Below, in pieces: positions 35,485 through 59,384 of a DNA stretch of 64,000 bases (positions are counted from its first letter, which is position 1; each line of letters begins with the position of its first letter). The notes under the pieces were generated by a model, which was given only the letters and a program-made list of their open reading frames with translations, was not told the origin of the DNA and ran no database searches. The stretch lies in assembly GCA_944332475.1 (NCBI GenBank), contig CALVKA010000001.1, forward strand, positions 372,001 to 436,000, written 5' to 3'. The DNA comes from an uncultured Bacilli bacterium. Its GTDB lineage: Bacteria > Bacillota_I > Bacilli_A > RF39 > UBA660. The position numbers and the translations under genes are program-made.

Positions 35485-37248
35485 CTACAACTCTTTTAAG
35501 TATGCAGCTAAAGTTTCTGCTACATCTTTGGATACTACTTTTGCTAATTCCTCCGTGCTTGCTTCTTTTAGTTTTTTTAATGATCCAAAGTGTTTTAATA
35601 ATTCTTTTTTTCTTACCTCTCCAATTCCTGGAACAGCATCTAAAACGGAAGATAGCATTCCTTTTGCTTTCATGTTTCTATGGTACGTAATTGCGTATCG
35701 ATGTACTTCGTCTTGAATTCTTGTAAAAAATAAGAATAGATTCGAATCTTTTGGCACATCTAATATTTGATATTGATCATTCATAATATAACTCGTTCTA
35801 TGGTTTTCATCTTTTACAAGTCCAATAATTGGTATATGTAGTCCTAACGAGTCAATGATTTCTTTTGCAACGCTGATTTGTAATTTTCCTCCGTCCATGA
35901 CAATTAAATCTGGTTTTTGTAAGTTTTCCATTAAGACTTTAAAATATCTTCTGTATAACACTTCTTTCATAGCACTTAAATCATCTTTTACTTCTGTTGA
36001 TATTTTATATTTTCGATATTCATTTTTTAATGGCAGAAAGTCTTCAAAAACAACCATTCCTCCTACGTAGAAAGTACCAAACAAATGAGAGTTATCGAAT
36101 GATTCCATTCTAGATACTTTATCTAAATGTAGCAATTCTTTTAATTCTTCGATTGCTTCTTGTCTTAGTGTATCATCTTTTTTCAAGGTTTCTTCTTGTA
36201 AGTCTAGCTGCTCTTTGGCATTTTCTTTGGCTAAATCTAGGAGTTTTTTTAGTTTTCCTTTTTGTGGAGTGTATGTTTTTAAATGAAAGTATTCACTTAT
36301 GAGCTCGCTATTCAATTCTTTTGGTAAATATAACTCTTTTGGTAACATTCCTTGTTTATCATAAAACTTAATCAAATATTCTAATACTTCTTCTTCTGGT
36401 TCGATTATTGTTTGAATGATTTCGTTATGCCTTCCAAATAGTAGGCCGTCTCGGATAAAAAAGATTTCTATTGATAAATAATTTTCATCTTTATAGTAAT
36501 TGACTAAATCAAACTGATATCCTTTGTTTAAATCTATCTTTTGCTTTCTTAATGTGATATCGATATCTTCTAACATTGTTTTTAGTTCTAATGCTTTTTC
36601 ATAATTCATTGCATCACTTGCTTGTTGCATTTCTTCTTTTATTTTTTCAACGATTTCTTTCGAGTCTCCTTTTAAAAAGGAAATAACTTCTTTTTTCATT
36701 TGATTCATTTTGTCTTCTGGTATTTCTTTTACGCAGTAGCCAAGGCATTCATGAATATGATAGTATAAGCATAGCTCTTTTTTTAATTTATCACATTTTC
36801 TTAATGGGTAAATGCGATTAATCATCTCTACTGTTTTTCTTGCTGCACTGACATTTGGGTATGGACCATATAGATGGTCTTTGGTCTTTTTTCTTTTGGT
36901 ATTTCTAACAATTTTTAATCTAGGATATTTTTCATTGGTAAGTTCAATATAGGGATATGTTTTGTCATCTTTTAATAAAATATTATACTTAGGATCATAT
37001 TTTTTAATTAAGGTAATTTCTAATATTAAACTTTCTAATTCACTAGAAGTTACTATATATTCAAAATCATCTATATCTTTTACTAGTGCTCTCGTTTTTC
37101 CTGTTACTGTACCAGTAAAATAGCTTTTTAATCTATTTTTTAGATTTTTTGCTTTTCCAACATAAATAATAACACCATCTTTATTCTTCATTTGATAACT
37201 ACCTGGCTTCGTTGGAACTAACGCTAATTTTTCTTTAAAGTTTTTCAT
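35485..37248 (-). CDS. uvrC: UvrABC system protein C
   Basis: The protein has 587 residues. The GIY-YIG nuclease domain (about 10-90; GVIIYVGKAKNLKNRL) is followed by the UVR motif (about 195-230), the RNase H-like second nuclease domain (SFDNSHLFGTFYVGGMVVF) and C-terminal helix-hairpin-helix repeats (AVPGIGEVRKKELL). It makes the incisions on both sides of DNA damage in excision repair. It sits upstream of the pilin, mutL and miaA genes. Confidence 0.97.
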   Translation of the reverse strand: MKNFKEKLALVPTKPGSYQMKNKDGVIIYVGKAKNLKNRLKSYFTGTVTGKTRALVKDIDDFEYIVTSSELESLILEITLIKKYDPKYNILLKDDKTYPYIELTNEKYPRLKIVRNTKRKKTKDHLYGPYPNVSAARKTVEMINRIYPLRKCDKLKKELCLYYHIHECLGYCVKEIPEDKMNQMKKEVISFLKGDSKEIVEKIKEEMQQASDAMNYEKALELKTMLEDIDITLRKQKIDLNKGYQFDLVNYYKDENYLSIEIFFIRDGLLFGRHNEIIQTIIEPEEEVLEYLIKFYDKQGMLPKELYLPKELNSELISEYFHLKTYTPQKGKLKKLLDLAKENAKEQLDLQEETLKKDDTLRQEAIEELKELLHLDKVSRMESFDNSHLFGTFYVGGMVVFEDFLPLKNEYRKYKISTEVKDDLSAMKEVLYRRYFKVLMENLQKPDLIVMDGGKLQISVAKEIIDSLGLHIPIIGLVKDENHRTSYIMNDQYQILDVPKDSNLFLFFTRIQDEVHRYAITYHRNMKAKGMLSSVLDAVPGIGEVRKKELLKHFGSLKKLKEASTEELAKVVSKDVAETLAAYLKEL

Positions 37249-37316
37249 GTTATCACCAACAATTCTAATTTATTATATCGTATTTTTAGAAAAATAAAAA
37301 GAAGATTTCTCTTCTT

Positions 37317-37526
37317 CTATTGATATTTTTGCATGGCTTTCATCATCTGATTAATTTGTTTTTGATTTGGTTTTCTACCCATTTGCATCATTAAGCCTTT
37401 TAACATTTCCTCTGTAATAGGAGGATTTTCTTTTAAGTATTTTTTCATTAATTTTCTAGCAACAACGACTCCAATAATTAAGCCGATAATTAGTCCTATT
37501 AATATCATTAATATATCATGCCACAT
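37317..37526 (-). CDS. yneF: YneF-family (UPF0154) membrane protein
   Basis: The protein has 69 residues, with one N-terminal helix (about 5-23) and a basic helical C-terminus ([20 protein letters not shown]). The match to UPF0154 is strong. It lies next to sirA and tkt, exactly as in Bacillus (tkt-sirA-yneF), though the function of YneF is unknown. Confidence 0.92.
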
Positions 37527-37579
37527 AATTTCATCTCCTTACTACTTTTATTTTACTAGATATTTTATTATTCTACAAG

Positions 37580-38011
37580 TTATATTGATTCTTTTTCTTC
37601 AAATTCTTGTAAAAAGAAGTAATCTTGATATTTAAATTCACAAACAAATAATCTTGGATTTAATAAATTTAAATAATGGAAGAATGAGGACGATAATTGT
37701 TCTGCCTCTATTTTAATATATGATTTTTTGACTATTAATCTGCTAATTTCATCTCGGTAGAGATTATTATAGTAATGAGTATTTCCTCGTTTTGAATATG
37801 GAATATCTTGATGTAGTTTTAAAAATAAATATCGATCTATTTTATTTTTATTAATTGGATTGATTAATTGTTGAAATAGATGATAACCATATTCCACTTC
37901 TTCTTTGTCTAGATAATATATTTGTTTTAATATATTAAATAAAATACGTTCGTTTCCTTTGTATAGATTGATAAATTCTTCTTTAATATCAAAAATAAAA
38001 TAGACTCTCAT
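37580..38011 (-). CDS. sirA: SirA-like sporulation inhibitor of replication
   Basis: The protein has 143 residues, the length of Bacillus SirA. From memory of the family, the N-terminal pattern IKEEFINLYKGNERILFNIL aligns with IKEEFANHYFGRESVMFELF. The C-terminal pattern SRLIVKKSYIKIEAEQL and VCEFKYQDYFFLQEF also follow. SirA is made in early sporulation and blocks DnaA to stop over-replication. Its position between tkt and yneF is the same as in Bacillus, which supports the call; a divergent sequence keeps it below certain. Confidence 0.82.
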   Translation of the reverse strand: MRVYFIFDIKEEFINLYKGNERILFNILKQIYYLDKEEVEYGYHLFQQLINPINKNKIDRYLFLKLHQDIPYSKRGNTHYYNNLYRDEISRLIVKKSYIKIEAEQLSSSFFHYLNLLNPRLFVCEFKYQDYFFLQEFEEKESI

Positions 38012-38060
38012 TTTATCACCTAATATTACTATAAGATAATGGGGAGTCTATTTTTGTCGA

Positions 38061-40061
38061 TTATTTTAGTAAGTTTTCTACTTTTTCTTCTAAACTGTCT
38101 ATGTCAAATCCATATTTTTTGTAAACGTCTTCTTTTCCACCACTCGTACCATATTCGTCTAATGTAATTAAGTATTTTTTGTTAAAGACAATGCTGTTCC
38201 ATGACATAGAAGATGCTGCTTCTATGACGATTTTTCTTACTTCTACTGGTAGGACGCTATCTATATACTCTTGATCTTGTTCTTCAAAGCGTTTAATACA
38301 TGGCATAGATACTACTCGAATGTCCATTCCTTTTGTCATCAATCTTTTGGCTACTTCTATGGCTAAATGAACTTCTTCGCCGGTGGCGATTAGGATGCCG
38401 GATAATTTTCGTTCGGAATCAAAAACTACATATCCACCTTTAGCAACATCGTTAATTTTCGTCGTTTCTAATATTGGTAATGTATTTCTTGATAAAGCAA
38501 TAACAGATGGGCCGCTTTCTTTTTCGAAAATTGTTCGGTAGACACCGATTACTTCATTAGCATCCGCTGGTCTAAATACTTCTAGATTTGGTGTTGCACG
38601 AAGAGATGCTAATTGTTCTACTGGCTGGTGTGTTGCACCATCGGGACCTACGCTGATAGAGTCATGAGTGAAGATATAAGTTACTGGTAAATCCATCATA
38701 GCTGACATTCTGATACTTGGTTTTAGATAATCACTAAAGCTTAAGAATGTAGAACCATACGGATGATATCCACATAAGGCAAAACCGTTTAGAATTGCTC
38801 CTAAGGCATGTTCTCTTACTCCAAAGAATATATTTTTTCCTTCTGGCGTTTCAGAAGTGAAGTTTCCTACTTCTTCTATATATGTTTTTGTTGGCTTAAA
38901 TAAGTCTGCACTGCCACCAATTATCGTTGGGTAGCTTGGGACAATGGAAGATAAGATTTTTCCTGATGTTACTCTAGGAGATTCTTCTTTTTCTTCTGGA
39001 GGTTCATAAATAACATCTTTGATATCAAACGATTTGTTACTGTTCATAAAGTCGGATAATACTTGTTTGTCATCTTCTTCTAATCCCTCTACTACTTTAT
39101 TAAATTTATCACTGATATTTTTGCAGCGATTATGAATTAGTGTTTGAAAATCATCCATTGTAATTTGGGAAATAGTAAATGGTATGTCTCTAATTTGCAT
39201 TTTTTCTTTGATAGCTGTTACATCTTCTTTACCTAATGCTCCTCCATGGACTGCGTTTGTTCCTTCTAGTTTAGAATATTTTCCGATTGTCGTCTTTATT
39301 TCAATTAAAGTAGGTTTATCTATTGATGCTTTCGCATCTTCTACGGCTTTGGTAATAGATGCAATATCTTCTCCATCCGATACTGTAATTACGTTCCAAT
39401 TCTGAGCAATAAAACGCATAGCCACATTTTCTGTGAAGCACTGAGAAGTTGGTCCGTCTAAACAAATATTATTTGAATCATATAAGACGATTAATTTATT
39501 TAGCTTTAATGTTCCTGCAAGAGAAGCTGCCTCATAAGTAATTCCTTCCATTAAATCTCCATCTCCACATAGGACGTAAGTATGAAAGTTAATTACTTCT
39601 TTTTTTCCTTTATTAAATCTAGCACTTAAATTTTTTTCTGCCATGGCGATGCCGACTGCAGTTGCAAAACCTTGGCCTAATGGACCTGTTGTTGTCTCTA
39701 CTCCTGGGGTGGTTTTATACTCAGGATGTCCCGGGGTTTTAGAGTCAATTTTTCTGAAATCTTTTAAATCTTCTAATGTTAAAGGATAGCCTGCCATATA
39801 AAGAGTTGCATATAGCAAAGCTGAGCCATGTCCGGATGACATAATAAATCGATCTCGATTAAAGAAGTCTGGGTTTTCTGGATCGATTTTCATATGATGA
39901 GCAAACAAACTATACATTATTGGTGCTGCTCCTAATACAATTCCTGGATGACCACTTCCGGCTTCTTCTATCATGTCGATTCCTAATGAACGAATCTGGT
40001 CAACAATCTTTTCTTCATTTATTTCACTCTCATCTCTTTTGGGGTTTACCACACAAATCAC
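38061..40061 (-). CDS. tkt: Transketolase
   Basis: The protein has 666 residues. The start may lie a few codons inside the open frame. Thiamine diphosphate motif GDGDLMEGITYEAASLAG is near residue 170, and the transketolase signature near DSISVGPDGATHQPVEQ lies in the pyrimidine domain. The enzyme moves two-carbon units between sugar phosphates in the pentose phosphate pathway. It is the first of tkt-sirA-yneF, with an AAGGAGTGAT-type Shine-Dalgarno. Confidence 0.97.
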   Translation of the reverse strand: MICVVNPKRDESEINEEKIVDQIRSLGIDMIEEAGSGHPGIVLGAAPIMYSLFAHHMKIDPENPDFFNRDRFIMSSGHGSALLYATLYMAGYPLTLEDLKDFRKIDSKTPGHPEYKTTPGVETTTGPLGQGFATAVGIAMAEKNLSARFNKGKKEVINFHTYVLCGDGDLMEGITYEAASLAGTLKLNKLIVLYDSNNICLDGPTSQCFTENVAMRFIAQNWNVITVSDGEDIASITKAVEDAKASIDKPTLIEIKTTIGKYSKLEGTNAVHGGALGKEDVTAIKEKMQIRDIPFTISQITMDDFQTLIHNRCKNISDKFNKVVEGLEEDDKQVLSDFMNSNKSFDIKDVIYEPPEEKEESPRVTSGKILSSIVPSYPTIIGGSADLFKPTKTYIEEVGNFTSETPEGKNIFFGVREHALGAILNGFALCGYHPYGSTFLSFSDYLKPSIRMSAMMDLPVTYIFTHDSISVGPDGATHQPVEQLASLRATPNLEVFRPADANEVIGVYRTIFEKESGPSVIALSRNTLPILETTKINDVAKGGYVVFDSERKLSGILIATGEEVHLAIEVAKRLMTKGMDIRVVSMPCIKRFEEQDQEYIDSVLPVEVRKIVIEAASSMSWNSIVFNKKYLITLDEYGTSGGKEDVYKKYGFDIDSLEEKVENLLK

Positions 40062-44873: not shown

Positions 44874-44904
44874 AAATGTAGATACATTTTATGTATCTAC
44901 ATTT
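44874..44904 (-). terminator. Terminator of the unknown-gene cluster
   Basis: A 14-bp perfect hairpin (AAATGTAGATACAT / ATGTATCTACATTT) with a three-base loop, followed by TTT on the minus strand. It terminates the cluster that begins near 51366. Confidence 0.8.
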
Positions 44905-44919
44905 GTCTTGTTACCTTTT

Positions 44920-45933
44920 TTAGATTCTTCTCAATTTCTTTGCGTAAGCTTTCTTTTCTTCTTGTAGTGTTTCAGGAGTAATGGTTGTATCTTCTCTCAT
45001 GATTCTTCCTTCATAGCGACTTGTTGCTGTTTGTAAATCTAAAATACTTTCCTGTATTGCTGATAGTGCATTGTTCATGGAAATTCTTTCTCCTCTTGTA
45101 GGAGATGATTCCATATTACTATTTACTAATTCTATTAGGGTTTGTGTAGAGGCTAAAAGTTCATCTGCTCCTACATTCAAACCGATAGCTGTCGTCACTT
45201 GTTGACAGGCCTTTTCTTTCGCATCTTTTTTAGATAGTATTTCTTTGTGCATCTGACATTCATCTATATTTGGTGGTAATGTAGTTGGATTAAATAACAG
45301 GCTCTTTACTGTGATGGTAGTATCTTGCAGTGGGAGAATACCTAAGTTGAAATCTCTTGAAACAATCTTATAATCCGAATTAGGACTATGGTATTTTATG
45401 ATTTCTGGATTGTAATTTGGTGTTATTTCTATATTGGCTAAATAGGTAATACTTTTATTCGAACTTAAAGAGCGATTTAGAGTGTATTGCTCTTCTTCAA
45501 ACTGGGCCGCTGAATCCATTACAATAAAGTCAATGCCTAGTCTTTCTATCTCACTTATTAGTTCCTTAATTCTATCCATTTTATCTTTGCGCATGTTCAT
45601 ATACATTGCATATTTTTTTATAGGAGAAAAACGTCTTATTGTGCCATCATTTTCAAAATGAGTTGATAAAAAGGGAGTAATTCCTCCATGACCATTCATG
45701 ATATCTAATTCTTTTTTATATTTGTTGTAAAAGCTAGTTACATCCGTTGGGACAAAGACTGGTTGTTGTCCATGAGATAGTCTATCTAATAAGCCTATTA
45801 TGTCTCTTTTTGGATGGTTTCTGTAAAGAATTGTTAATGAAGATGAAAAATCCGGAAGTACTTCATATAGCTCACCTAATATGACTAAGTCTTTTACTTT
45901 CGTTGGTCCAATGTATTAACTTGTATGATTCAT
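44920..45933 (-). pseudogene. Paralogue with in-frame TAA at codon 6
   Basis: The ATG at 45933 has a very good AGGAGAGG Shine-Dalgarno, yet the sixth codon (45918-45916) is TAA. After it the frame is open to 44920, and the sequence reads on as YIGPTKVKDLVILGELYEVL. The full 337-residue product is the same length as the paralogues at 45937-46938 and 48337-49332, and shares the same helical pattern. So this is probably a gene broken by one nonsense change (CAA to TAA is one base), or the stop is read through. The remaining frame could restart at ATG 45699. No family recognised. Confidence 0.7.
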
Positions 45934-45936
45934 ATA

Positions 45937-46938
45937 CTATCCTCTCCTATTTGGTCTATATTCTTTTTTACGAACTAGGCGTTTTATTTCATCTTTTCCT
46001 TTTTCAACTTCATCTCTTGATATTCCTGGATACGTATCTTCCAAATCTTCTATGCATGCTGAACGAGTTTGTTTTAAAACAATAGCTTTACTTCTCATTT
46101 CTGATAATGTATTTAAGAAGCGTCTTCTATCCGGGATGTTTTCTGAAACTTCAGCTAATTTTATTAAATTAGAAACCGCAGTTGAGACTTCTGTTATGTT
46201 TTTATATAATGCCAACGCAATACTTAATTCTTCTTGTTCATGTTCTTTTTGTTTTTTTTGAATCTCAGCAAACGCATTTGTTACAGAAATAGTTTCTGGC
46301 AATTGATTTTTAGGAAATGTTAGACTTGTTACTATTAATCTAGGAGGTTGTTCGAAATCTTTACCAGGTTTGGGATATAGTATAGCAACATATGGTGAGT
46401 CGATTTGATAGCATATACTATTTTCTTCTGTTGGTCGAAGTGCTTCTATATTTCTAGCATAGGCAATAAATTTATTTCCATATAGGTTCGGAGAGACGCT
46501 ATATTCTTGTAATAAACTTTGCTCTAGGTCCATTTCGATGGTTGGGAAACCCAACTCTTTGATTTTCTCTAGTGTATCTGTAATTTGAGCTTGTTGGTTT
46601 TGATGCCTTTTTAAATATTGAAAGAATGTAGTACCCTCTGAGGCTTCTTTGTGTTTTCCTGTCTCGTCATAATAGGCATCTAAGAAACTTTCTATATCTG
46701 TTGTTTGTAGAATAGTATTTATGGTTTTTTTATTTCTATTGTAGAAATTACCAATTGCATTACCTATTGGTCTATATGGTGTATCACCACTTGTTAATTC
46801 CTTTAATTCTTTTGGTACATTTCTGCCTGGTAGAGATTCTATAAGTCGTTGATAGTCTTGATCAAAGTAGTCTGTTTTATCGATTACTCTAGCCATAGCA
46901 AGCACATTATTCGTATCTAATTTTTGAATATTCTGCAT
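45937..46938 (-). CDS. Hypothetical protein, paralogue A
   Basis: The start is set at ATG 46938 (MQNIQKLDTNNVLAMARV), with AAGGA five bases before it. It has 333 residues, no signal peptide and no membrane helix. It shares with the other two paralogues a region around FYNRNKKTINTIL, a motif IKELGFPTIEMD, and a helical C-terminus. The last gene of the paralogue group overlaps its stop codon region. No family recognised. The protein is probably cytosolic; an enzyme motif is not visible. Confidence 0.7.
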   Translation of the reverse strand: MQNIQKLDTNNVLAMARVIDKTDYFDQDYQRLIESLPGRNVPKELKELTSGDTPYRPIGNAIGNFYNRNKKTINTILQTTDIESFLDAYYDETGKHKEASEGTTFFQYLKRHQNQQAQITDTLEKIKELGFPTIEMDLEQSLLQEYSVSPNLYGNKFIAYARNIEALRPTEENSICYQIDSPYVAILYPKPGKDFEQPPRLIVTSLTFPKNQLPETISVTNAFAEIQKKQKEHEQEELSIALALYKNITEVSTAVSNLIKLAEVSENIPDRRRFLNTLSEMRSKAIVLKQTRSACIEDLEDTYPGISRDEVEKGKDEIKRLVRKKEYRPNRRG

Positions 46939-47034
46939 TTTTTCCTTCTTTCTAACGTGGGAGTACATATCCCTTGTGCTTTTTATTATAGCATACTCTG
47001 ATATAAAAGCAAAAAAACTTAGAAATCTAAGTTT

Positions 47035-47700
47035 TTATTTTCTACGCGAAGTTTGTCTTAATACTTTGATAGCGGGATTGTCCATGGGGTTAAATCCAAC
47101 AGATTCTAAATAGTCTGCCCATTCTCTTTTTAAGTTATCATCGGATATATTTTTTAGGGAAGAATTGATTCCTGCTACTAAAATATGTAGTTCCAATTGT
47201 TTGATTGGGGTGGTTTCAATATCTCTTTTTGTAGTTGTTGTCATTTGTTGGTATAATGTGGTGTTTTGGGGAGATTGTGCAATATAGTCATCTTTCGTAT
47301 ATCGTCTGATATTATTTGCACCATGAATTTTATAATATAATTCTCTGGTAAATTCATAGCCTAATGTTGGATCATATACTCTATTATTCATCTCGACCCA
47401 GCCGTGACCTCCACTACTTCCGTTATTAGCATACGAGATTGATTTTAAATCTCCTCTAACAAGGAAGGAATCGGGAAAACATAAGAACATATATAGACTT
47501 TCAGCATAGCATTTCCCTACTACATTGGTCGCTAGAGCAATTTTTAATAGTAGGGATATGGGAACTCCTCCCAGATAGACATTATTCATTTGGTTGTATA
47601 TAGCTTCTGAAAATGGTTTTATTTCTCCTTTATCTATACCTTTTTTATATAATAGTTCACTTCTTAAAAAAAATAATCTTTGTGTTATTTGTGATGCCAT
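47035..47700 (-). CDS. Transglutaminase-like cysteine protein
   Basis: The protein has 221 residues. A possible catalytic triad is Cys64 (VVGKCYAESLYMF), His99 (SSGGHGWVEMNN) and Asp110 (RVYDPTLGY). This order and spacing match transglutaminase-like or papain-like folds. There is no signal peptide, so it is cytosolic, or secreted by a route I cannot see. It lies inside a run of unknown genes. Whether it is a peptidase, deamidase or cross-linking enzyme is unknown. Confidence 0.65.
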   Translation of the reverse strand: MASQITQRLFFLRSELLYKKGIDKGEIKPFSEAIYNQMNNVYLGGVPISLLLKIALATNVVGKCYAESLYMFLCFPDSFLVRGDLKSISYANNGSSGGHGWVEMNNRVYDPTLGYEFTRELYYKIHGANNIRRYTKDDYIAQSPQNTTLYQQMTTTTKRDIETTPIKQLELHILVAGINSSLKNISDDNLKREWADYLESVGFNPMDNPAIKVLRQTSRRK

Positions 47701-47764
47701 AATTAGCCTCCTTTTCTCTTGTCATTTTATTAAAAAAATCCCCGTAGGGATTTCTATGTTGTGA

Positions 47765-48226
47765 TTATCTTTTTTTTACTACTGGTTCTGATGATTCTAT
47801 CGTTACTTTTCCATTTACTATGTCTTTTAATGGAATTCTTAGTCCGTTTTCATCATTTGCGTTTAAAACTCTAGCACCTTTAACTGTGTTTTTTCTTGTT
47901 GTATATACTAAATATACTGGCCTATCAACTCTTGCTCCATTCATATCTCCTAATTCTGTATATCCATCATGAAAGTAAGCTACTGTGGTTGCATATTTTA
48001 AATTTTCAATATTTGCCTCAGCAGAAAAAAATCGGTTTTGTAATGGTGATAATAAACCTATTTGAATTTCATCACTATTTGGTAGTTGGTATAACGCTAC
48101 TATATGCTCTACCCCATATGGAGTGGATTCTGCATGGTCTTTTTCTTCTTGACTAATTGGTGTTAAAACCATAAAATCGTTTCTTATGGCAGCTGCTTCT
48201 GTATCCCAAAAATCTAGTTTTGACAT
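47765..48226 (-). CDS. Hypothetical protein
   Basis: The protein has 153 residues, predominantly beta strands, including VEHIVALYQLPNSDEIQIGL and RPVYLVYTTRKNTVKGARVL. There is no signal peptide or helix. It ends in a basic tail VVKKR. The gene stands in the middle of the cluster, 64 bp before the transglutaminase-like gene. I recognise no family. Confidence 0.6.
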   Translation of the reverse strand: MSKLDFWDTEAAAIRNDFMVLTPISQEEKDHAESTPYGVEHIVALYQLPNSDEIQIGLLSPLQNRFFSAEANIENLKYATTVAYFHDGYTELGDMNGARVDRPVYLVYTTRKNTVKGARVLNANDENGLRIPLKDIVNGKVTIESSEPVVKKR

Positions 48227-48336
48227 ATTCTATCCCCTTTCCGGTGAAGCCTATTATACTACATTTTCGAGTTGGTGTCAAAATCATTTGTTTCTTCTAT
48301 ATCTATATTTTATTTTTAACTTTTTATGCAAAAAGT

Positions 48337-49332
48337 CTAGGTGTCTAGGCTTCTAGAATTTTGCTGGTATGTTTTCATATAAACGTGTTTTTCTTCTTTT
48401 AATTTATCCGATGTAGAAGGAAATAACTCTAATACTTGTTGTTCATAAATTTCTCCATTTTGTTGTAATACGGTAATGCCACTTTTTATTTGCTGTATCG
48501 CTTGTATTAATTGAGGGGTGGTAGTTTCTTGATTTAAATTCTCTATCAAACCTTCTATAGTACTTAGATTCGTCTTTAGCCCATAGATGCTTTTATTCCA
48601 GTCAACAGCAATTCTTAAAGCATTTTCTGATTCTAAATTGGTGTTGCTTTTTCTTTTTATTAAATCGTCAAATGTATCTTCTTTACTCGTACCGTTAGGG
48701 AGAATAGATGGTGAAAATAATAAAGTGTTTACTAAAATTCTCTTTGTTTTATACGTTCCATTTTCATCTGGTATGACAATAATAATATACGGAGACGATG
48801 ATATTTCATAGTTTATTTGTTCATCACTATAGCTAGGTAGAAATTCTACTACTTTGCTATATACTATAAATAAGTTTTTAGAAAATTCCGTATCCATTTG
48901 ATATGTTCCTGAAAAGTCCCATCCTTCTTGCATCTCTATTGTGGTGAAACCTAAATCTTTTATTTTAGATGCAGTGGATAATAATTGTTCTTGATTTTCT
49001 CTATGACTTTTTATGTAATGATAAAAATATGGTAAGTTACTACGTGAGCCCATCTTACCTTCTGTATCATAATAGGTTCTTAAAAAACGGTCAATTCTGG
49101 TGTGTTCGTTTATTGAATTAATGGTGTCTCTATGTTTATCAAAAAATTCGCTTACTACTGTGTGTATGCATTTTGGATTTTTCTTACTTAATTCTCTTAA
49201 TTCTCGTAGAACTTCTTTTTTTGAAAGCTTTTCTATTAGGACTTCTAAATCTTGATTAAACGCTTCTAAATCATCTGCAATATGGCACAATAAAATTAAG
49301 TCTTTTATATGTAAAACATAAGGTTGCTTCAT
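48337..49332 (-). CDS. Hypothetical protein, paralogue B
   Basis: The start is set at ATG 49332 (MKQPYVLHIKDLILL), with AGGAG upstream. It has 331 residues and no signal peptide. The region FFDKHRDTINSI and the motif IKDLGFTTIEM match the other two paralogues, as does SPYIIIVIP. The C-terminus is helical. It is one of three copies in 4.4 kb, with little sequence identity, so the duplications are old. No family recognised. Confidence 0.7.
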   Translation of the reverse strand: MKQPYVLHIKDLILLCHIADDLEAFNQDLEVLIEKLSKKEVLRELRELSKKNPKCIHTVVSEFFDKHRDTINSINEHTRIDRFLRTYYDTEGKMGSRSNLPYFYHYIKSHRENQEQLLSTASKIKDLGFTTIEMQEGWDFSGTYQMDTEFSKNLFIVYSKVVEFLPSYSDEQINYEISSSPYIIIVIPDENGTYKTKRILVNTLLFSPSILPNGTSKEDTFDDLIKRKSNTNLESENALRIAVDWNKSIYGLKTNLSTIEGLIENLNQETTTPQLIQAIQQIKSGITVLQQNGEIYEQQVLELFPSTSDKLKEEKHVYMKTYQQNSRSLDT

Positions 49333-49574
49333 AGATGGTTCTCCTCTCATAATAAAGTCAAGTAATTCTTATACAAAACTTTATAAAATTTTTGGTTTTT
49401 TGTTTTTTCAGTGTTTTATATTTTTATTATTATATTTAAGCATAATGAAAATTGTTAACATAGGCATTTTTTTATTTTGTTAGCTTAATTATTAAATATA
49501 TAATTAAGTGGACTGTTAGCCAATGCGTTTTTCATATATGCTTATCCTTTCTAAGTTTTTATAGTTATTATTTT

Positions 49575-50600
49575 TTATTTATTCATTCCTGATTGAAAAC
49601 TTTCTTGTTCTCTTAATATTATTTCTGCTCCATTTATGAGATTTTGTTTTAGTTTTGGTGTTGTTAAGCAGTTTTCTACTAAATGATATTTCTTTTCGAT
49701 ATAGTCATTATCATTAAAGCTTATAAAAGCAGCTGATAGGTTTTGTTCTGCTTTGGTAATTAACTCATCTTGTTTTGATAGACTACCATAAAAGCGTTGA
49801 CCATTTGTTCCTTGCATGGATACAGGACGTTCCGCTAATAATTTTGCATGGCCTGCTAATATTGCTTTATCTATATCATATACCATTTCTAAATCGTCCA
49901 TTAGTTCATCAAAAGACGGATAAAGAGAGCCTGCTAGCATGTTTTCTGTATCATACTTATTTTCTAGTTTTTCTCTTCCTTTTCTATCAAATCCTAAATC
50001 TAAAATATCTGCTAGACTCATTCCAATAGTCGTTGCGAAAAGCTCTAAAATATTTCCATTTAATTGATATTCTGAAAGAAAACTATAAGTGGTATGACCT
50101 GGTTGTCCTCTTACTGTTCTTTCCGTTTTTGGAGGTAGGGCTGTTCCATTTGAAATGTGATATAAAATCTCTGCTGTATATTGTGCGGATGCTTCTGCAA
50201 AAAACAATCCATTATGACCATTGGAAAAACCGCAATGCTCTATTCCTTTTTCTTCCCAAGTTTGAAGAGCATGCGTTAATTCATGGAAGAAATATAGCTT
50301 GTTAGCGTCTTCTCCTAGCAAATTACTCATTGTTATTTTTTTGCGTTCTGTTACACCGTAAATACCACCAAGGTCTTTCTCACTTATCTCCTCTACTGTT
50401 GCTGGTAATCGTCTCGCTATTTCTAAGGCATCTAAATTGGTGCCACCAACGTCATGTAACATGGCAATAGAATCAATGTAATCTGCCATTAATATATAAT
50501 ATTTTTCAGGTATATTTCCAGTTTTGATTTGAAACAAACTTTTTATCGAGTCTACTAAACCAGATTCTAGTAATTCTTGTTTCCTTTCACTATTATTCAT
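49575..50600 (-). CDS. HELTH-motif zinc metalloprotease
   Basis: The start is set at ATG 50600 (MNNSERKQELLESGLV), giving 341 residues. Zinc motif HELTH at 106-110 with a third ligand probably Glu136 (FFAEASAQYTAE), typical of gluzincins. There is no signal peptide. The flanking regions have no known family. It is near the head of the cluster, after a 113-bp gap. A protease that cleaves a partner protein, perhaps one of the paralogues, is possible (inference). Confidence 0.75.
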   Translation of the reverse strand: MNNSERKQELLESGLVDSIKSLFQIKTGNIPEKYYILMADYIDSIAMLHDVGGTNLDALEIARRLPATVEEISEKDLGGIYGVTERKKITMSNLLGEDANKLYFFHELTHALQTWEEKGIEHCGFSNGHNGLFFAEASAQYTAEILYHISNGTALPPKTERTVRGQPGHTTYSFLSEYQLNGNILELFATTIGMSLADILDLGFDRKGREKLENKYDTENMLAGSLYPSFDELMDDLEMVYDIDKAILAGHAKLLAERPVSMQGTNGQRFYGSLSKQDELITKAEQNLSAAFISFNDNDYIEKKYHLVENCLTTPKLKQNLINGAEIILREQESFQSGMNK

Positions 50601-50712
50601 ATTTTTCCCTCTCACTTTACTATCATAAAAAATAGTTTCTATTTTTTATTCATTGTATCATATTTTTTAGACTATAAAAAGGAACTATGGTTCCTTTCCT
50701 TCATGAACTATT

Positions 50713-51366
50713 TTATGATTTTTTCTTTTGTGGAAGATCTGCTAAATTTTTTTCGATGCGACTATATCCTTTACTTAATTCTAGCTGGCCATTTAATTTT
50801 TTTATTTCTAAATCTCGTCTAATCATGTCTTTGTTGTGCTTATTAAATCCAAGGATAAATTCTTTGTCTTCTTCTCCATCTAATGAAACTATGTCGTTTA
50901 AAGAGACTGTCAACGGATCTTGCATTATTTCATCGATGGTTGTTTTTACATATTCTGAATCTACATTTTCATATAATCTATATACTCTCCAGGATGATTT
51001 TAATGCTTCTCGTGTTCTATTGTTAGACACTAATATCTCTCCTGGAAGTGTTGGATAGTCTCTTCTATCTCCATAGAAATAGTCTTCTGTTGAAATCTGT
51101 ATTCTTGTTGTTCCATTTAGCTGGGTAAAATAATATCCCGATTCATCTACTTGTACTTTTAAAATGACTGGATAAGAATCATCTAAATAAGGTTGATAGT
51201 TAAATGGATCTTTTCTTTTTGGATATAAGGTTTCATAAGAATAATGATTATCAATTCCTCCAATTATTAATGATCCGATTCTATTGGAATTTACAACGAA
51301 AAGGGTTTTGTTTTGACACATGATGTCTCTAGCGTTTTCATCTTCTCTACCTGACCATGCTGGCAT
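50713..51366 (-). CDS. Hypothetical protein, first gene of the cluster
   Basis: The protein has 217 residues, mostly beta strands in the first 150 and helical in the last 50 (DKEFILGFNKHNKDMIRRDL). It has no signal peptide. AAGGAGG precedes the ATG. It starts the run of minus-strand unknown genes next to the tRNA pair. I recognise no family. Confidence 0.6.
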   Translation of the reverse strand: MPAWSGREDENARDIMCQNKTLFVVNSNRIGSLIIGGIDNHYSYETLYPKRKDPFNYQPYLDDSYPVILKVQVDESGYYFTQLNGTTRIQISTEDYFYGDRRDYPTLPGEILVSNNRTREALKSSWRVYRLYENVDSEYVKTTIDEIMQDPLTVSLNDIVSLDGEEDKEFILGFNKHNKDMIRRDLEIKKLNGQLELSKGYSRIEKNLADLPQKKKS

Positions 51367-51617: not shown

Positions 51618-51694
51618 GGACCCTTAGCTCAGTTGGTTAGAGCATCCGGCTCATAACCGGGCGGTCACTGGTTCGAGTCCAGTAGGGTCCACCA
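51618..51694 (+). tRNA. tRNA with CAU anticodon, probably tRNA-Ile2
   Basis: A full cloverleaf with CAT anticodon (GGCTCATAACC) and encoded CCA. The acceptor GGACCC and the D-arm TAGCTCAGTTGGTTAGAGCA resemble the Bacillus tRNA-Ile2, which reads AUA after TilS lysidine modification, rather than elongator tRNA-Met. The assignment relies on my recollection of those sequences. Confidence 0.9.
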
Positions 51695-51704
51695 TTATCA
51701 ATAT

Positions 51705-51788
51705 GCGGGTATGGCGGAATTGGCAGACGCGCTAGACTTAGGATCTAGTGTCTTAGACGTGCAGGTTCAACTCCTGTTACCCGCACCA
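51705..51788 (+). tRNA. tRNA-Leu(UAG)
   Basis: A class II tRNA with a long variable arm, anticodon loop CTTAGGA (anticodon TAG) and encoded CCA. It follows the CAU tRNA by ten bases in the same transcript. A decayed mobile element lies just behind it. Confidence 0.95.
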
Positions 51789-52156: not shown

Positions 52157-55100
52157 TTAGGCGTTTCTTAATCTTTTTCTTATAATAAGATAACCAAACA
52201 TCATTGTATTTAATATTCCTGTTAGTAAAATTATGCTAATGTCGTCAGAAGTTTCTGGATTTTCAAATACTTCGTCTGTTGGTGGTACCTCTACTTTAGT
52301 AATTACCTCGTTAGAAGGTACTTCTTCTCCATCATTACCTAAAACTAAAGCTATATTTCCAATAGAAATGTCTTCTGTTACATTTTCACTTACTTTTACC
52401 GTAAGAATAAATGTCTTCTTATCTCCAGCAATTAAAGAATTAATATCATAAGTTACTGTATGAGTACTTGGATCATAAACTCCTCCAGCGCTAGAAATAA
52501 ATTCTAAGTTTTCATTTAACTTATCAACTACAACAATATTTTCTGCATCTACATCACCGTCATTAGATACTGTGATTGTATAAGTTAAGATTTCTCCTGG
52601 CCTTACTTGTTTTTTATCTACTGTTTTGGTTACAGATATAATTTCATGATTATTAACGATTGTAAATGTATCACTACTATATGTTGTCTCGTAACCTGCA
52701 ATTTTTGATATTTCTGAAAGCGTATATTTAATTAACTCTCCATTAAAATATTTATCTAATCCGTTAATTTGCTCCCTCCAGTTATTATCATTGCTTAAAT
52801 AGATTGTTCTTATTACTTCTCCATTTGCAAGTAAATTAACCGCAATATAATCAGAACGAAGATTGTCTTTGTTGTTCATATCATTCCATACTTTTTCTGC
52901 TGTTACAGAAGTTTGTTCTGGTGTATGAACATTAGTAACAGTAAAGGTACCATCTTGATCTTCTCCATATATGACACTATATCCAGTTGGTACATCTTTT
53001 TCTCTAACTGTATATGTAATCTTTTCTCCATTTTGATATACTGGAACATTTTCAAAGCTTCCAGACCAATTATCTTTTGTTAATGGAATTTCATCCACTA
53101 CTTCACCATTAGCTAGTAAAAGTATTACTACTTCATTTGGTCTAATACCATCTTGATTATTATAATCATCCCAGATTTTTTCTACTTGAATAGTAGTAGT
53201 TTCTGGAGTATGTGTATTAGTAATTGTAAATGTATCATCACTATAGGTTGTATGGTATCCTGCTACCTCACTAACTTCTTCTACTGTATATCTAGCTAGT
53301 TCTCCATCTTTATATTTTGGTAAGTGAGTAAAGTGGTATGTCCAAGCATTAGAATCAGATAATGTAATCTCACTACCATAAGCTACACCATTTTGATATA
53401 GTTGAACTCTAATATTATTTGGTCTAATACCATCTTGGTTACCATTGTCATCCCATACTTTAGTTACAGTTTTTTCTATTCTTTCAATATTTCTTTCGTT
53501 CGTAATGATAAAGGTATCTCCATCTTTACTATAAGAAACATTATAGGTGTCTGGTACATCTACTTCTTTTACTTCATACTCAACCTTTTGACCATTTTTA
53601 TTTACGGCTACATCATGGAAAGTACCTTTCCAATTATTTCTTGCATCTAAGGTTATAGTATCTACTACTTCTTGTGAACCTTTTTCATGTAATTCTACAG
53701 TAATAGAATTTGGTCTAAATCCCTCTAAATTATTTTCATCTAACCAAACTTTTTGTACTGGAATATCCATAGTATCCGCATAGTGAGTATTAATGATTTT
53801 AAATGAATCATCCTCATACTTTACAGTATATCCATTAGGAACATTTACTTCTTCTACCGTATATTTTATCTCTTCTCCTGCTTGATTTTTATCAAGATTT
53901 TCAAAAGTATATGTCCATTGATTACTTTCACTTAACTGTACTGGAGAACCTGTTTTCGTACCATTTGCATAAAGCTGTACTTCAATATATTCAGGTCTAA
54001 TACCATCTTGATTGTTACTATCATTCCATTCTTTAACAACTGTTTTAGAAGTTAATTCTGGAGTGTAAGAGTTTGTTAATGTAATGGTATTATCACTTGT
54101 AACATTAGAAGAAAGTGTATAACCTTCAATTGGATTTTCAGTAACTGTATACTCTATTTCTTTTCCAGAATCATATTTTGGAAGATTTGTAAATGAAGTT
54201 TTCCAGTTGTCTTCTGCCGTAATCACTCTTGTGCTCTCGGATTCACCATTTGCATATAACGTAATAGTAATTTGATCTGGACGAACTCCATCTTGGTTAT
54301 TTTTATCATCCCATTTTTTCTCTACATTTATTTCTGTAGTCTCTGGAGTATGGGTATTTACAATTGTCATCAAATCTGTTCCATCTTCTCCATAAGAAGA
54401 AGTATAACCTGGAACATCAGTTGTTTCAACGATTGAATAATCAATTGCTTCTCCATTCTCGTTTCTTTCTAGATCTGAGAAGGTATGTCTCCAGTTATTT
54501 TCAGCATTTAGCGTTGCTTTCTTACCTGTTGCTTTACCATTGGCATATAATTCAACTTCAATGCTAGTTGGACGAATTCCATCTTGATTATTATTATCAT
54601 CCCACTCTTTAACTGCTGTCTTAGCAATCTTTTCTGTTGTGTGAGTATTTATAATTCTGAAGTTTCCTGACGAAGTAGTAGTAACTTCACTAGTATATCC
54701 TTCAATATTACTTACTTCTTCTACCGTATAATCAATTGGTTTTCCATTAGCATTTTTATCAAGATTTTCAAAAGTATATCTCCAATTATTACTTTCACTT
54801 AAAGTAACTGGTGTTCCTTCTGGAGTCCCATTAGCGTATAATTGAACGCTTACAGATGTAGGACGAATTCCATCTTGATCATTGTTATCATGCCATATTT
54901 TTTCTACAGTTTTATTAATAGTTTCTACTTCATGTGTATTGATAATAGTAAGTTGATCCTCACTATATGTTGTTTCATAACCATCTATTTGAGTTAATTC
55001 TCTTACTGTATAAGAAATTTCTTGATTGTTTGTATACTTTTGTAAATTTTCAAAAGTATATTGCCAACCATTTTCTTCTGTTAACGTTGCCTTCTTACCA

Positions 55101-57013
55101 GTTGCAGTTCCATTTGAGTATAATTCAACCTCAACAGGAGTTCTCAAACCATCTTGGTTATCGCCATCTTGCCAATCTTTATAAACTGTTTTTTCTGTAG
55201 TTTCTTGTGGGTCAATTAATACCATTTTTCCATTATTTCCAAGTTTTGTTGTTACAACACCAGTTTCATGATTGAAATTAGTACTGTAATAAGTATTACT
55301 TGTTCCCGTTAAGTTTTCACTTTTTTCTAGTGATTTATTATCATATTTTGGAGTTGAACTTGCTACTGTTCCATCCTCATTATAAACAATATTCTCATAA
55401 TAATATGGATTATCTCTTACAGGGGAGAACGTAACACGTGCTTCATCCGTTAAATCATTTGTATAGAATACATCACCCGTTCTAGCAGCTTTTACTGCTT
55501 CATCACTTAATCCCACTCTAGTGATTAAACGAATTGGATTAACACTAGTCTCTGGATTATTCTTATCCCTATTTAAGAATGGGAATAATGTTTTAGGTAT
55601 TTGGAATTGAATAGTTTGTTTTCCATTATAGTTATGTACTCTTACACGTAAATCACTTAAATTAGCAGCCTCATTACTACTGTTTGTTACTGCATAATTA
55701 TAAACATATTCTGTATAATTTGCAGTTTTGTTTGTAGATGTTGGAACATATTCATGTCCATCAAACAATACTTTAGGTTCATCTTTTACTTCTACCCCTT
55801 CTCCAAGAGTATCAGTAAATAACATTGTTCTACTATCGACATTTCCTGAACCTTCTAATGGAGATGAGGTACCTGAAATAATATCAGAAGTAATTTCTTC
55901 TAAAATAGAATTTAATCTATCTCCCGAGATGTTATCAGCATAACCTCTATCTACATAATTATAATCATATGGAGAAAACATTAAATTGTCTTTTAAATCG
56001 CCTTCTTTTCCGTTATTACCTAATTGATTAATATTTTCTCTAGTTGGATTTAACACAACTTTTCCAAAAATATCAGTTACATCCATACCGATAGTATAAT
56101 ACTTACTTTCAGTATTATAATGTGCTTCAATTTTTTCTTTACTATCCATACCAGTTAAAATTGTATAATAACCAGTATCTCCAGTATAAGAATCTGTATA
56201 CCCATTTCCTAAATTATACTCTGAATTACCTACATTATCATATTTAGAAGTTCCATAAGTTGGTATTCCGTCTGATAAAAGAATCACAACAGGAACTCTA
56301 TCTTCTGTATCACTTGTTGCTTCAAGCATATCTTTAGCTGTATCCATACCTTTTTGTGTATAGGTACCACCTGACACATCCACACTACCATTTTCTCGCT
56401 GATTATTACTATCTCTGATAACACTTGTTGCGGAAATGTATGGTGTTGGCCATAAAAATCCATCTAAGCCATACTCTAGATATCTTGTACTATTATCAGT
56501 CGTATGATAAGAATCTAATGGTAATAACGTAGAGCTATTATCACTAAAAGTTACAATCCCTATTCTATTCTCTGAGTTAGCTTTCATGATTGTACCAATC
56601 GCTTGATTAACTGCACTAGTCATACTGATATAACGACCGTTATCTTCCATACTTCCAGAAACGTCTAAAATGAAAACTACATCTACTTTTTTAGCATTGC
56701 TAACAACAGATTTTGTTTCAAAAGACTGTCCAACTGCAGATAAAGTTATGTCAAATAAGTCTTCATCAATATGAGTTACCGTTTTATCAGTCCATATTTT
56801 ACCATCATCCTGAGGATCACCAGTATAATCATTTTCGATGTGTTGCGTATCAGGGTCTGCTACACTACTAATATCATAATGAACATCTGATGACAAAGCA
56901 CTAATAAAAAGAGGTAAATTAAACTGAGTAAAAAACGTAACCGTAGCTAATACCAGATAACTTGCTTTTTTGGTAAAACCTTTAAGCCTTCTTTTTAGCT
57001 TACCTACTTTCAT
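52157..57013 (-). CDS. Sortase-anchored adhesin: VWA domain and nine Cna_B repeats
   Basis: The protein has 1618 residues. After a signal peptide (about 15-40) comes a von Willebrand A domain (about 108-385) with MIDAS motif DVSGSM (Asp117). Then nine Cna_B repeats of 75-95 residues, each starting with a pattern like KVWDDNNNQDGIRP and containing YTVEE, then an extra DUF11-like domain and the tail NPETSDD followed by a hydrophobic helix and RKRLRNA. NPETS fits the class B sortase recognition motif NPxT. It should attach to host proteins, possibly collagen or fibrinogen. The neighbouring divergent gene encodes a class B sortase, a probable partner. Confidence 0.93.
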   Translation of the reverse strand: MKVGKLKRRLKGFTKKASYLVLATVTFFTQFNLPLFISALSSDVHYDISSVADPDTQHIENDYTGDPQDDGKIWTDKTVTHIDEDLFDITLSAVGQSFETKSVVSNAKKVDVVFILDVSGSMEDNGRYISMTSAVNQAIGTIMKANSENRIGIVTFSDNSSTLLPLDSYHTTDNSTRYLEYGLDGFLWPTPYISATSVIRDSNNQRENGSVDVSGGTYTQKGMDTAKDMLEATSDTEDRVPVVILLSDGIPTYGTSKYDNVGNSEYNLGNGYTDSYTGDTGYYTILTGMDSKEKIEAHYNTESKYYTIGMDVTDIFGKVVLNPTRENINQLGNNGKEGDLKDNLMFSPYDYNYVDRGYADNISGDRLNSILEEITSDIISGTSSPLEGSGNVDSRTMLFTDTLGEGVEVKDEPKVLFDGHEYVPTSTNKTANYTEYVYNYAVTNSSNEAANLSDLRVRVHNYNGKQTIQFQIPKTLFPFLNRDKNNPETSVNPIRLITRVGLSDEAVKAARTGDVFYTNDLTDEARVTFSPVRDNPYYYENIVYNEDGTVASSTPKYDNKSLEKSENLTGTSNTYYSTNFNHETGVVTTKLGNNGKMVLIDPQETTEKTVYKDWQDGDNQDGLRTPVEVELYSNGTATGKKATLTEENGWQYTFENLQKYTNNQEISYTVRELTQIDGYETTYSEDQLTIINTHEVETINKTVEKIWHDNNDQDGIRPTSVSVQLYANGTPEGTPVTLSESNNWRYTFENLDKNANGKPIDYTVEEVSNIEGYTSEVTTTSSGNFRIINTHTTEKIAKTAVKEWDDNNNQDGIRPTSIEVELYANGKATGKKATLNAENNWRHTFSDLERNENGEAIDYSIVETTDVPGYTSSYGEDGTDLMTIVNTHTPETTEINVEKKWDDKNNQDGVRPDQITITLYANGESESTRVITAEDNWKTSFTNLPKYDSGKEIEYTVTENPIEGYTLSSNVTSDNTITLTNSYTPELTSKTVVKEWNDSNNQDGIRPEYIEVQLYANGTKTGSPVQLSESNQWTYTFENLDKNQAGEEIKYTVEEVNVPNGYTVKYEDDSFKIINTHYADTMDIPVQKVWLDENNLEGFRPNSITVELHEKGSQEVVDTITLDARNNWKGTFHDVAVNKNGQKVEYEVKEVDVPDTYNVSYSKDGDTFIITNERNIERIEKTVTKVWDDNGNQDGIRPNNIRVQLYQNGVAYGSEITLSDSNAWTYHFTHLPKYKDGELARYTVEEVSEVAGYHTTYSDDTFTITNTHTPETTTIQVEKIWDDYNNQDGIRPNEVVILLLANGEVVDEIPLTKDNWSGSFENVPVYQNGEKITYTVREKDVPTGYSVIYGEDQDGTFTVTNVHTPEQTSVTAEKVWNDMNNKDNLRSDYIAVNLLANGEVIRTIYLSNDNNWREQINGLDKYFNGELIKYTLSEISKIAGYETTYSSDTFTIVNNHEIISVTKTVDKKQVRPGEILTYTITVSNDGDVDAENIVVVDKLNENLEFISSAGGVYDPSTHTVTYDINSLIAGDKKTFILTVKVSENVTEDISIGNIALVLGNDGEEVPSNEVITKVEVPPTDEVFENPETSDDISIILLTGILNTMMFGYLIIRKRLRNA

Positions 57014-58073: not shown

Positions 58074-59384
58074 CTATATTCTTGATGGTATTTCTTTTGT
58101 TTCCTCTTGTTTTCTTTCTAATTTATAGAATGGTATTAATTTTGTCCTTGCTGGATACATTCTTGGAAGAATAATAATAGCTTCGAATTGGTTCATCATT
58201 TTCAATTCTTCTATGGTAATTAAAGGAATATCTTTTGATACTTCTCCACACGTCTTAGATATTTCTTCTAGAGTATAAATATCATTAGAATATAAGTAAA
58301 GAATATTGGAAAAACATAGTTTTAATATTTCTGTATCTTCTTTACCATAAACATTTACTAATTGCATAAAATTTTGGACTGCTGCGGTTATTTGAATATT
58401 TATACTTCTTGCTTGACCAATTACTGTTGCAAAGTTCTTTAATTTTGCCATTAAACCAAATTCATCTAACACCATATTAAATTGCTTTTTCTCTACGTCA
58501 TACAATTCTTTACTTTTTATAAGTTGGCCAATATACATAGGTATTAATTTTGTTGCTAGTTCATTAGACCCGGTTATCATAAATATTGCTGAATTTTCAT
58601 GTACTATCTCTTTAAAAGTTCTATCACTTTTTGATAATAAACTCGATAGGTTTTCTTTTGAAATATATGGAAATATCTTTTGTTGAAATACACTTAAGAT
58701 GCTCCCTCTTGTTTCTGGTGGAGCAAGTAGTGTTGTTGATAGTGCTAGATAAATTGGTGAATATGGATCTAATTTATTTAAAAGTTCATCTGATTGTCCC
58801 TTTCTATTTAAACTAGTGGATAAATCTACTATATCTTTTATATTTATCTCTTCTTTTTTATGTTCAAATAAATATAATACCAAGCCTGTAAAATAACTTA
58901 TTGTTGTATTAGACCAAAATGGATCTATATTGGCTGATGGCTTGTCAGAAAATAAATAATATCCTACTTCTTCTATCATTTCTTGGGCTTTGTCTTTTTG
59001 GCCATCTTTATATACTTGATATGGTAAAGATAATGGATTCCAATTATTGCCAAGAGTGGAATCATCAAAATCAATAATTGTTGTTTGATATCCTTGTTGT
59101 TCTAATTTGGTTCCTAAGAGTTTGTATAATTCTCCCTTCGGATCAATTGTTAAGAAAGATTCTTTTGCTCGAATCGATAAATCAAGCATTGGAAGAATTG
59201 TAGATTGTGTTTTCCCGGATCCTGTTGAGCCGATTAATAATGTATGGTTTCTATTTTTATCTATGTATACGGTATTTTCTTCATACATTAACGGTATACC
59301 AACTTGATTTGGCCTCTCTCCTTTCTTTATTGGTATTAAGTTTTCTTTTAGTTCTTCTTTGGTTGTCCATCTTGCATACTGCAT
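58074..59384 (-). CDS. VirD4/TraG-like conjugative coupling ATPase, orphan
   Basis: The protein has 436 residues. Walker A is GSTGSGKT (52-59) and Walker B VLDEFG (305-310), with a typical coupling-protein motif DPKGELYKLLG. The usual N-terminal membrane helices of VirD4 are missing, so it starts directly before the P-loop and is about 150 residues shorter than full-length coupling proteins. No other conjugation gene is nearby. It may be a relic of an integrated conjugative element, or a soluble ATPase with a new role. Confidence 0.85.
   Translation of the reverse strand: MQYARWTTKEELKENLIPIKKGERPNQVGIPLMYEENTVYIDKNRNHTLLIGSTGSGKTQSTILPMLDLSIRAKESFLTIDPKGELYKLLGTKLEQQGYQTTIIDFDDSTLGNNWNPLSLPYQVYKDGQKDKAQEMIEEVGYYLFSDKPSANIDPFWSNTTISYFTGLVLYLFEHKKEEINIKDIVDLSTSLNRKGQSDELLNKLDPYSPIYLALSTTLLAPPETRGSILSVFQQKIFPYISKENLSSLLSKSDRTFKEIVHENSAIFMITGSNELATKLIPMYIGQLIKSKELYDVEKKQFNMVLDEFGLMAKLKNFATVIGQARSINIQITAAVQNFMQLVNVYGKEDTEILKLCFSNILYLYSNDIYTLEEISKTCGEVSKDIPLITIEELKMMNQFEAIIILPRMYPARTKLIPFYKLERKQEETKEIPSRI

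Follow-up and report, generated by a model that had tools for sequence, protein, structure and literature searches.

An exchanged, fast-diverging gene island in a variable tRNA-tkt slot of an uncultured Bacilli bacterium, tentatively a conflict island

We analyzed a window of 64 000 nt of DNA from an uncultured Bacilli bacterium (G000:C1:372001-436000; G000 is its 1.43 Mb genome, and other G numbers are the genomes compared with it). At 44920-51366 the minus strand of the window carries seven open reading frames (ORFs), as the initial annotation had it, in the order P7, MP, A, S, TG, B, C, flanked by a tRNA-Met/tRNA-Leu pair and by a lemA-like gene (Table 1). This island sits in a chromosomal slot whose cargo turns over; it was recently exchanged between two species, its shared genes evolve under purifying selection and two of its products carry enzyme-like motifs. 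From the site, the neighbours, the exchange and the enzyme types we infer a conflict function: tentatively, the genes form a horizontally exchanged intracellular conflict island in a hypervariable slot, whose likeliest targets are phages or other invading DNA. Literature searches turned up no description of this cluster.

Table 1. Features of the island and of its boundaries (window coordinates)
Feature	Position	Strand	Remarks
P7, 217 residues	50713..51366	-	First gene; signature gene of the island; in all four islands
MP, 346 residues, HExxH protein	49575..50615	-	HELTH at residues 111-115; third-ligand candidate Glu141
Mini-ORF, 16 codons, with ribosome-binding site	49485..49535	-	In the long MP-A gap; read directly from the sequence
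A, 337 residues, member of a new paralogue family	48337..49350	-	Profile search, tree, AlphaFold2 model
S, 153 residues	47765..48226	-	Relatives only in two other genomes, there outside the island
TG, 221 residues, transglutaminase-like	47035..47700	-	Cys64-His99-Asp110; motif invariant in 9 sequences
B, 343 residues, A paralogue	45937..46968	-	In a clade with G015, G014 and G002 island copies (100/98)
C, third paralogue, interrupted frame	44920..45933	-	TAA at codon 6 (45916-45918); groups with G015, G014 and G002 island copies (95/91, long branch)
Promoter-like site before P7	51391..51419	-	Extended -10; sequence prediction
Terminator-like hairpin behind P7	50677..50698	-	-8.9 kcal/mol, T-tract
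Perfect sigma-A consensus promoter before S	48253..48281	-	TTGACA-17-TATAAT, 12/12 matches
Terminator-like hairpin behind S	47735..47754	-	-8.1 kcal/mol, T-tract
Terminator-like hairpin behind TG	47015..47034	-	-5.8 kcal/mol, T-tract
Promoter-like site before B	46985..47012	-	Extended -10; sequence prediction
Terminator behind C	44874..44904	-	14 bp stem, -14.4 kcal/mol, T-tract
tRNA-Met and tRNA-Leu pair, one slot boundary	51618..51788	+	ARAGORN, here and in relatives
uvrC, sirA and tkt, other slot boundary	35485..40061	-	tkt and sirA identified by Pfam in G015; order in relatives

The slot and its cargo

The frame of the slot is conserved. The sirA gene was present in all 16 genomes of the genus that we compared; the tRNA gene(s) and tkt lay together on one contig in G000, G004, G007, G009 and G012, and elsewhere the order of the flanks was kept where contigs allow. 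The tRNA pair, noted initially as the neighbour of the first gene, is indeed there, on the strand opposite to the island. What lies between the flanks differs: G000, G002, G014 and G015 carry the P7 island, while other genes fill the place in G004, G006, G007, G009, G011, G012 and G013. Conserved core genes flanking content that varies between genomes are the build of a core defence hotspot.

Several genes in or beside the slot resemble known defence genes. One subtype of an MvaI/BcnI-type restriction enzyme was seen only in the slot, in six genomes (G002, G004, G006, G011, G013 and G014; with the tRNA pair on the same contig in all except G013), and a second subtype is located elsewhere, in eleven genomes. 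Across the tRNAs, on their left, G002 has a fused AriAB gene (PADLOC 2.5e-73; its Pfam matches to AAA_21 and DUF4435 exceed the cut-offs). The anti-phage system AriAB has been tested and is known also as a single-gene fusion (PMC9122126). Also across the tRNAs are a Tmn-like gene in G009 (PADLOC 3.9e-34) and, in five genomes, an XRE-ImmA gene similar to PD-Lambda-2_B (1e-19); one genome has an IetA-like gene inside the slot, with a weak match (PADLOC 4e-9). The slot proteins that gave these PADLOC matches were chosen by eye.

Other families that fill the slot in sister species were noted in passing. Two of them have a transglutaminase-like Cys..His(..Asp) arrangement (L206 14853-15848, L234 89-1078, L235 3151-3852 and L088 7873-8577; slot of G004, G006 and G011), so that genes for thiol-enzyme-like proteins seem to recur there. 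A tandem family of ∼280-330 residues with the motif LLGYxxxxxDSN..W fills the slot in G007 and G012 (L203 8630-15533, L196 7907-8893). Directly beyond the tRNA pair the window itself encodes a surface protein of 1618 residues (52157-57013) with VWA, nine Cna_B repeats and DUF11.

Exchange, divergence and decay

Over 6.76 kb, the DNA of the G014 island is 97.25% identical to that of the G002 island, while dS (synonymous divergence) of tkt, sirA and uvrC between the same two genomes is 0.9-1.1. Near-identity of the islands against a flank dS of about 1 points to recent exchange between two species. Mis-binning of contigs is an unlikely source of the near-identical islands: immediately to the left of the tRNA pair, identity of the two genomes falls sharply, from >90% to 58%, and a second G002 contig, which joins the end of the island to lemA, a DUF2207-like gene and tkt, also counts against it. 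Two contigs of the G002 assembly (L060 8026-8334 and L204 10487-10795) share only 97.4% identity where they overlap, a sign of a strain mixture in this metagenome-assembled genome (MAG).

The dN/dS ratios of the island genes shared by G014 and G002 are 0.09-0.34; this range indicates purifying selection, thus the shared genes are working genes. The island proteins of G000 share only 26-50% identity with those of G015, compared with 84% for tkt. The island is therefore old, fast-diverging and exchanged. At the same time gene loss is under way: TG in G002 is deleted down to its last codons, as seen on two contigs, and C in G000 has a nonsense codon.

Base composition of the island was uninformative as to foreign origin (G+C 31.4% against 30.3%, standard deviation 1.0). 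Cargo of a prophage, a plasmid or a conjugative element was rejected as a candidate, as no relatives turned up where they were searched for: MP, A and P7 had none in viral contigs (IMG/VR) by profile search, phage and plasmid records contained none for MP and A, and phage records none for TG.

The island in relatives

Of all the genomes searched, only the four of the genus with the island have P7, and all four islands include it (39-46% identity). In G015, G014 and G002 it again occurs together with a C-type and a B-type paralogue, always at the same chromosomal site; thus the cluster is conserved in relatives. TG accompanies them in G015 and G014, and MP also occurs in G015. Gene content and order vary among the four islands; S, known from three genomes, is in no other island, and some of the islands of G002, G014 and G015 include a peptide deformylase or a NUDIX gene.

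The enzyme-like proteins MP and TG

We searched the seven island products against Pfam, PADLOC 2.0.0, PHROGs and NCBIfam and found nothing convincing: no protein had a Pfam or NCBIfam match above cut-off, none had a convincing PHROGs match and none of the seven had a PADLOC match at E<=1. The initial statement that no known system matches the cluster therefore stands. Neither did a sequence search of PDB with profiles of A, MP, TG and P7 give anything significant.

The HELTH and Cys-His-Asp motifs reported initially are both present and invariant across relatives. In an alignment of 11 MP sequences H111, E112, H115, E141, Q145 and E149 are invariant. MP thus shares with HExxH metallopeptidases the invariant motif itself and, 26 residues downstream, a conserved Glu, the pattern expected of a zincin with a third zinc ligand, and it is a candidate metallopeptidase on this ground. 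It differs from the known ones in that its matches to DUF6782, DUF6055 and Peptidase_M78 are weak, none above a curated cut-off, so that no named peptidase family can be assigned. Relatives of MP were found at 15 loci in public MAG contigs, mostly of Bacilli; most are solitary and several are decayed.

In TG, C64, H99, E103, Y109, D110 and Y123 are invariant (9 sequences), and the Cys, His and Asp follow each other in the order of the transglutaminase-like superfamily, of which TG may be a member. The structure model of TG is weak (predicted local distance difference test, pLDDT, 50.5), with no significant fold match, though several papain-like thiol enzymes were among the insignificant ones. 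In this low-confidence model the Cys is placed at a helix start and the His and Asp at strands, as in transglutaminase-like and papain-like thiol enzymes; unlike these, TG has no significant profile or fold match. A single family member gave a weak YunG-like Pfam match (PF24591, E 0.034). TG was present in 13 of the 118 genomes in which it was searched for.

The A/B/C family

A, B and C are members of a single family (∼335 residues) that has no invariant polar, catalytic-looking residues. The three paralogues of about this length that were recognized initially are indeed homologous; the third one, though, is not intact. C begins with an ATG at 45933, with a good ribosome-binding site, directly behind the stop of B, and meets its stop at codon 6; the 331 residues of open frame beyond this are clearly homologous, the intact ORF left being one of 259 residues from ATG45699. 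Of the five A-family genes of G000, another one also has a single early stop (L062 near 9450; TAG at codon 27, the rest open). Early stops in two of five genes suggest recent decay or something regulated.

In the family tree A is the sister of the B clade, and B and C each group with island copies of their own type. A profile search of 288 genomes from the order detected the family in 24, all within the window's own family. Its members are mostly solitary, in varied places; some are found again in other genera next to mtaB/recD2-type helicase genes, tkt or uvrC. With no database model and an occurrence so far only in one bacterial family, the A family is new.

The AlphaFold2 model of A is confident (pLDDT 86.9; predicted template modelling score, pTM, 0.68), with a helical part at residues 15-132, a beta part at 137-207 and long helices at 223-333. 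Foldseek gave no significant match for it in PDB or BFVD, the N-terminal and beta domains not having been searched alone; VIA-align gave only common helical-bundle matches with Z below 8, mostly to residues 238-337.

The C-terminal tails divide the family. Many solitary members end in RR..S-IDID although the rest of the protein is only ∼25% identical (e.g. L064 8370-9368, L164 5837-6871 and L211 508-1533). The strict pattern RR-x4-IDID-stop, searched genome-wide in 291 genomes, was found only in A-family genes (4 of 4 matches); the tail as a general signal was therefore rejected. The similar ending RRYFNDSIDKKR of a slot protein unrelated to the family (L206 14853-15848), and of its orthologue, is no more than chance would give. 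In the island copies B and C the tail is basic instead of -IDID, while the paralogues outside islands have mostly acidic -IDID ones. Outside the island, the contrast between a fast-changing body and a conserved tail is a concrete lead to a binding partner.

The last 15 residues of island proteins (G000, G014 and G015) have a mean net charge of +3.4, against +0.6 in other proteins. One could speculate that the island proteins are exported onto other cells without a signal peptide, e.g. by a conjugative-type apparatus that reads such tails. A coupling-protein gene of a type IV secretion system (TraG/VirD4; PF02534, E 7e-36) does lie near the island, at 58074-59384, but it may belong to an unrelated conjugative remnant; the island has no gene for a secretion apparatus, and the acidic tails of the paralogues elsewhere speak against export as well, which we hold to be very improbable. 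The initial view that none of the seven proteins is secreted agrees with hydropathy, by which they have no signal peptide or membrane span (maximal 19-residue mean 0.65-1.73, compared with 3.5 for LemA).

Predicted transcription signals

The strong hairpin at the end of the cluster was correctly identified at the outset. It is not the sole terminator of a single unit, as had been proposed: a hairpin with a T-tract is predicted also behind the 217-, 153- and 221-residue genes, and promoter-like sites are predicted before most genes, namely P7, MP, A, S and B. In the region as a whole, promoter-like sites are just as numerous as in shuffled sequence; therefore, weight is given only to their placement in gaps and to the perfect site before S. 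The predicted internal signals do not fit a single operon with one promoter and one terminator; the most economical reading would be about five transcription units: P7, MP, A, S-(TG) and B-C. The 16-codon mini-ORF between MP and A is possibly a leader peptide or a remnant. The idea of one effector-regulator operon is thus not borne out: several units are predicted, gene content varies among genomes and members of three of the families stand alone at other places.

Such independence could mean that the genes have no joint function, i.e. that the slot gathers unrelated, independently transcribed genes and the seven became neighbours by chance of insertion. The predicted terminators and promoters that separate them, the variable content and order, S missing from the other islands, the A, MP and TG genes found alone elsewhere and the ongoing decay are all in accord with this. 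However, P7 is accompanied by members of both the B and the C clade in four species, three of which have TG as well, and such persistence despite strong divergence of the proteins would hardly be expected of chance neighbours; we regard the explanation as doubtful.

A common regulator offers another way to tie the genes together. In the islands of G002, G014 and G015, P7 is separated from the paralogues by a gene for a sigma-70-like protein (385-389 residues). This protein is divergent, with ∼140 unexplained N-terminal residues (L058 2877-4046, L059 7657-8814 and L161 8902-10134). The genes could then make up a lineage-specific regulatory or physiological set, such as a stress or envelope response, under the sigma-like factor. 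The 31% identical copy that G000 keeps elsewhere in its genome fits this, as do the solitary A genes beside core genes (recD2-type helicase, tkt, uvrC). Yet the island of G000 lacks the sigma gene, and its genes carry ordinary sigma-A-like promoter sites, as predicted; the A family is sporadic in the order, and recent exchange between species together with very fast divergence is unusual for core physiology. Such a set seems to us unlikely.

A possible conflict island

We thus return to the explanation of an intracellular conflict island. In this scheme the island would move between species of the genus by recombination, filling the slot between the tRNA-Met/tRNA-Leu pair and tkt-sirA-uvrC. 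MP, as a zinc-hydrolase-like protein, and TG, as one resembling thiol hydrolases or acyltransferases, may cleave or modify cytoplasmic proteins upon invasion; the A/B/C family could supply recognition or scaffold parts diversified by duplication. With separate transcription units, the island would be a set of modules, each gained or lost singly.

Several observations weigh against this explanation. Defence models match none of the island proteins at the PADLOC threshold given above. A, MP and TG are solitary in other genera, some of them beside core genes. The sigma-70-like gene in three islands and the deformylase or NUDIX genes in some fit regulation or physiology equally well. Ten further slot proteins had no PADLOC match, and in a control scan 47 ordinary proteins of the window matched ten PADLOC models at E<=1e-8; given these control matches and the choice of slot proteins by eye, enrichment in defence genes is not statistically shown, and the defence character of the slot is suggestive. 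The defence-like character proposed initially for the cluster is thus in keeping with location, exchange and fast divergence, but no component of the island supports it. For want of a defence component, and because of the separate transcription units and the control scan, we hold the explanation only tentatively. The stronger proposal of a multi-gene anti-phage or intracellular conflict system unlike those in catalogues, one combining a new fast-evolving family with zinc-hydrolase-like and transglutaminase-like proteins and travelling between species via one slot, appears to us rather doubtful.

A variable slot in an uncultured lineage yields genes of unknown function that can be tested as defence candidates without known systems as bait.

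Comparison with known systems

Relatives of PARIS (AriAB), Tmn and PD-Lambda-2 occur at the same site in sister species, across the tRNA pair; they lie outside the island and share no component with it. Core defence hotspots with the build of this slot are known in Pseudomonas aeruginosa (PMC10250203), where most of the cargo is of unknown function, and defence hotspots at tRNA loci are known in E. coli (PMC10121019). In comparison with these, few known immune systems lie inside the present slot (one restriction-enzyme type and one weak IetA-like gene; enrichment not statistically shown), and the host is an uncultured Bacilli lineage. As in cDHS1 and cDHS2 of P. aeruginosa and in the E. coli hotspots, variable cargo, mostly of unknown function, is held between core genes or tRNAs, and genes of restriction and abortive-infection type are found in or beside the slot.

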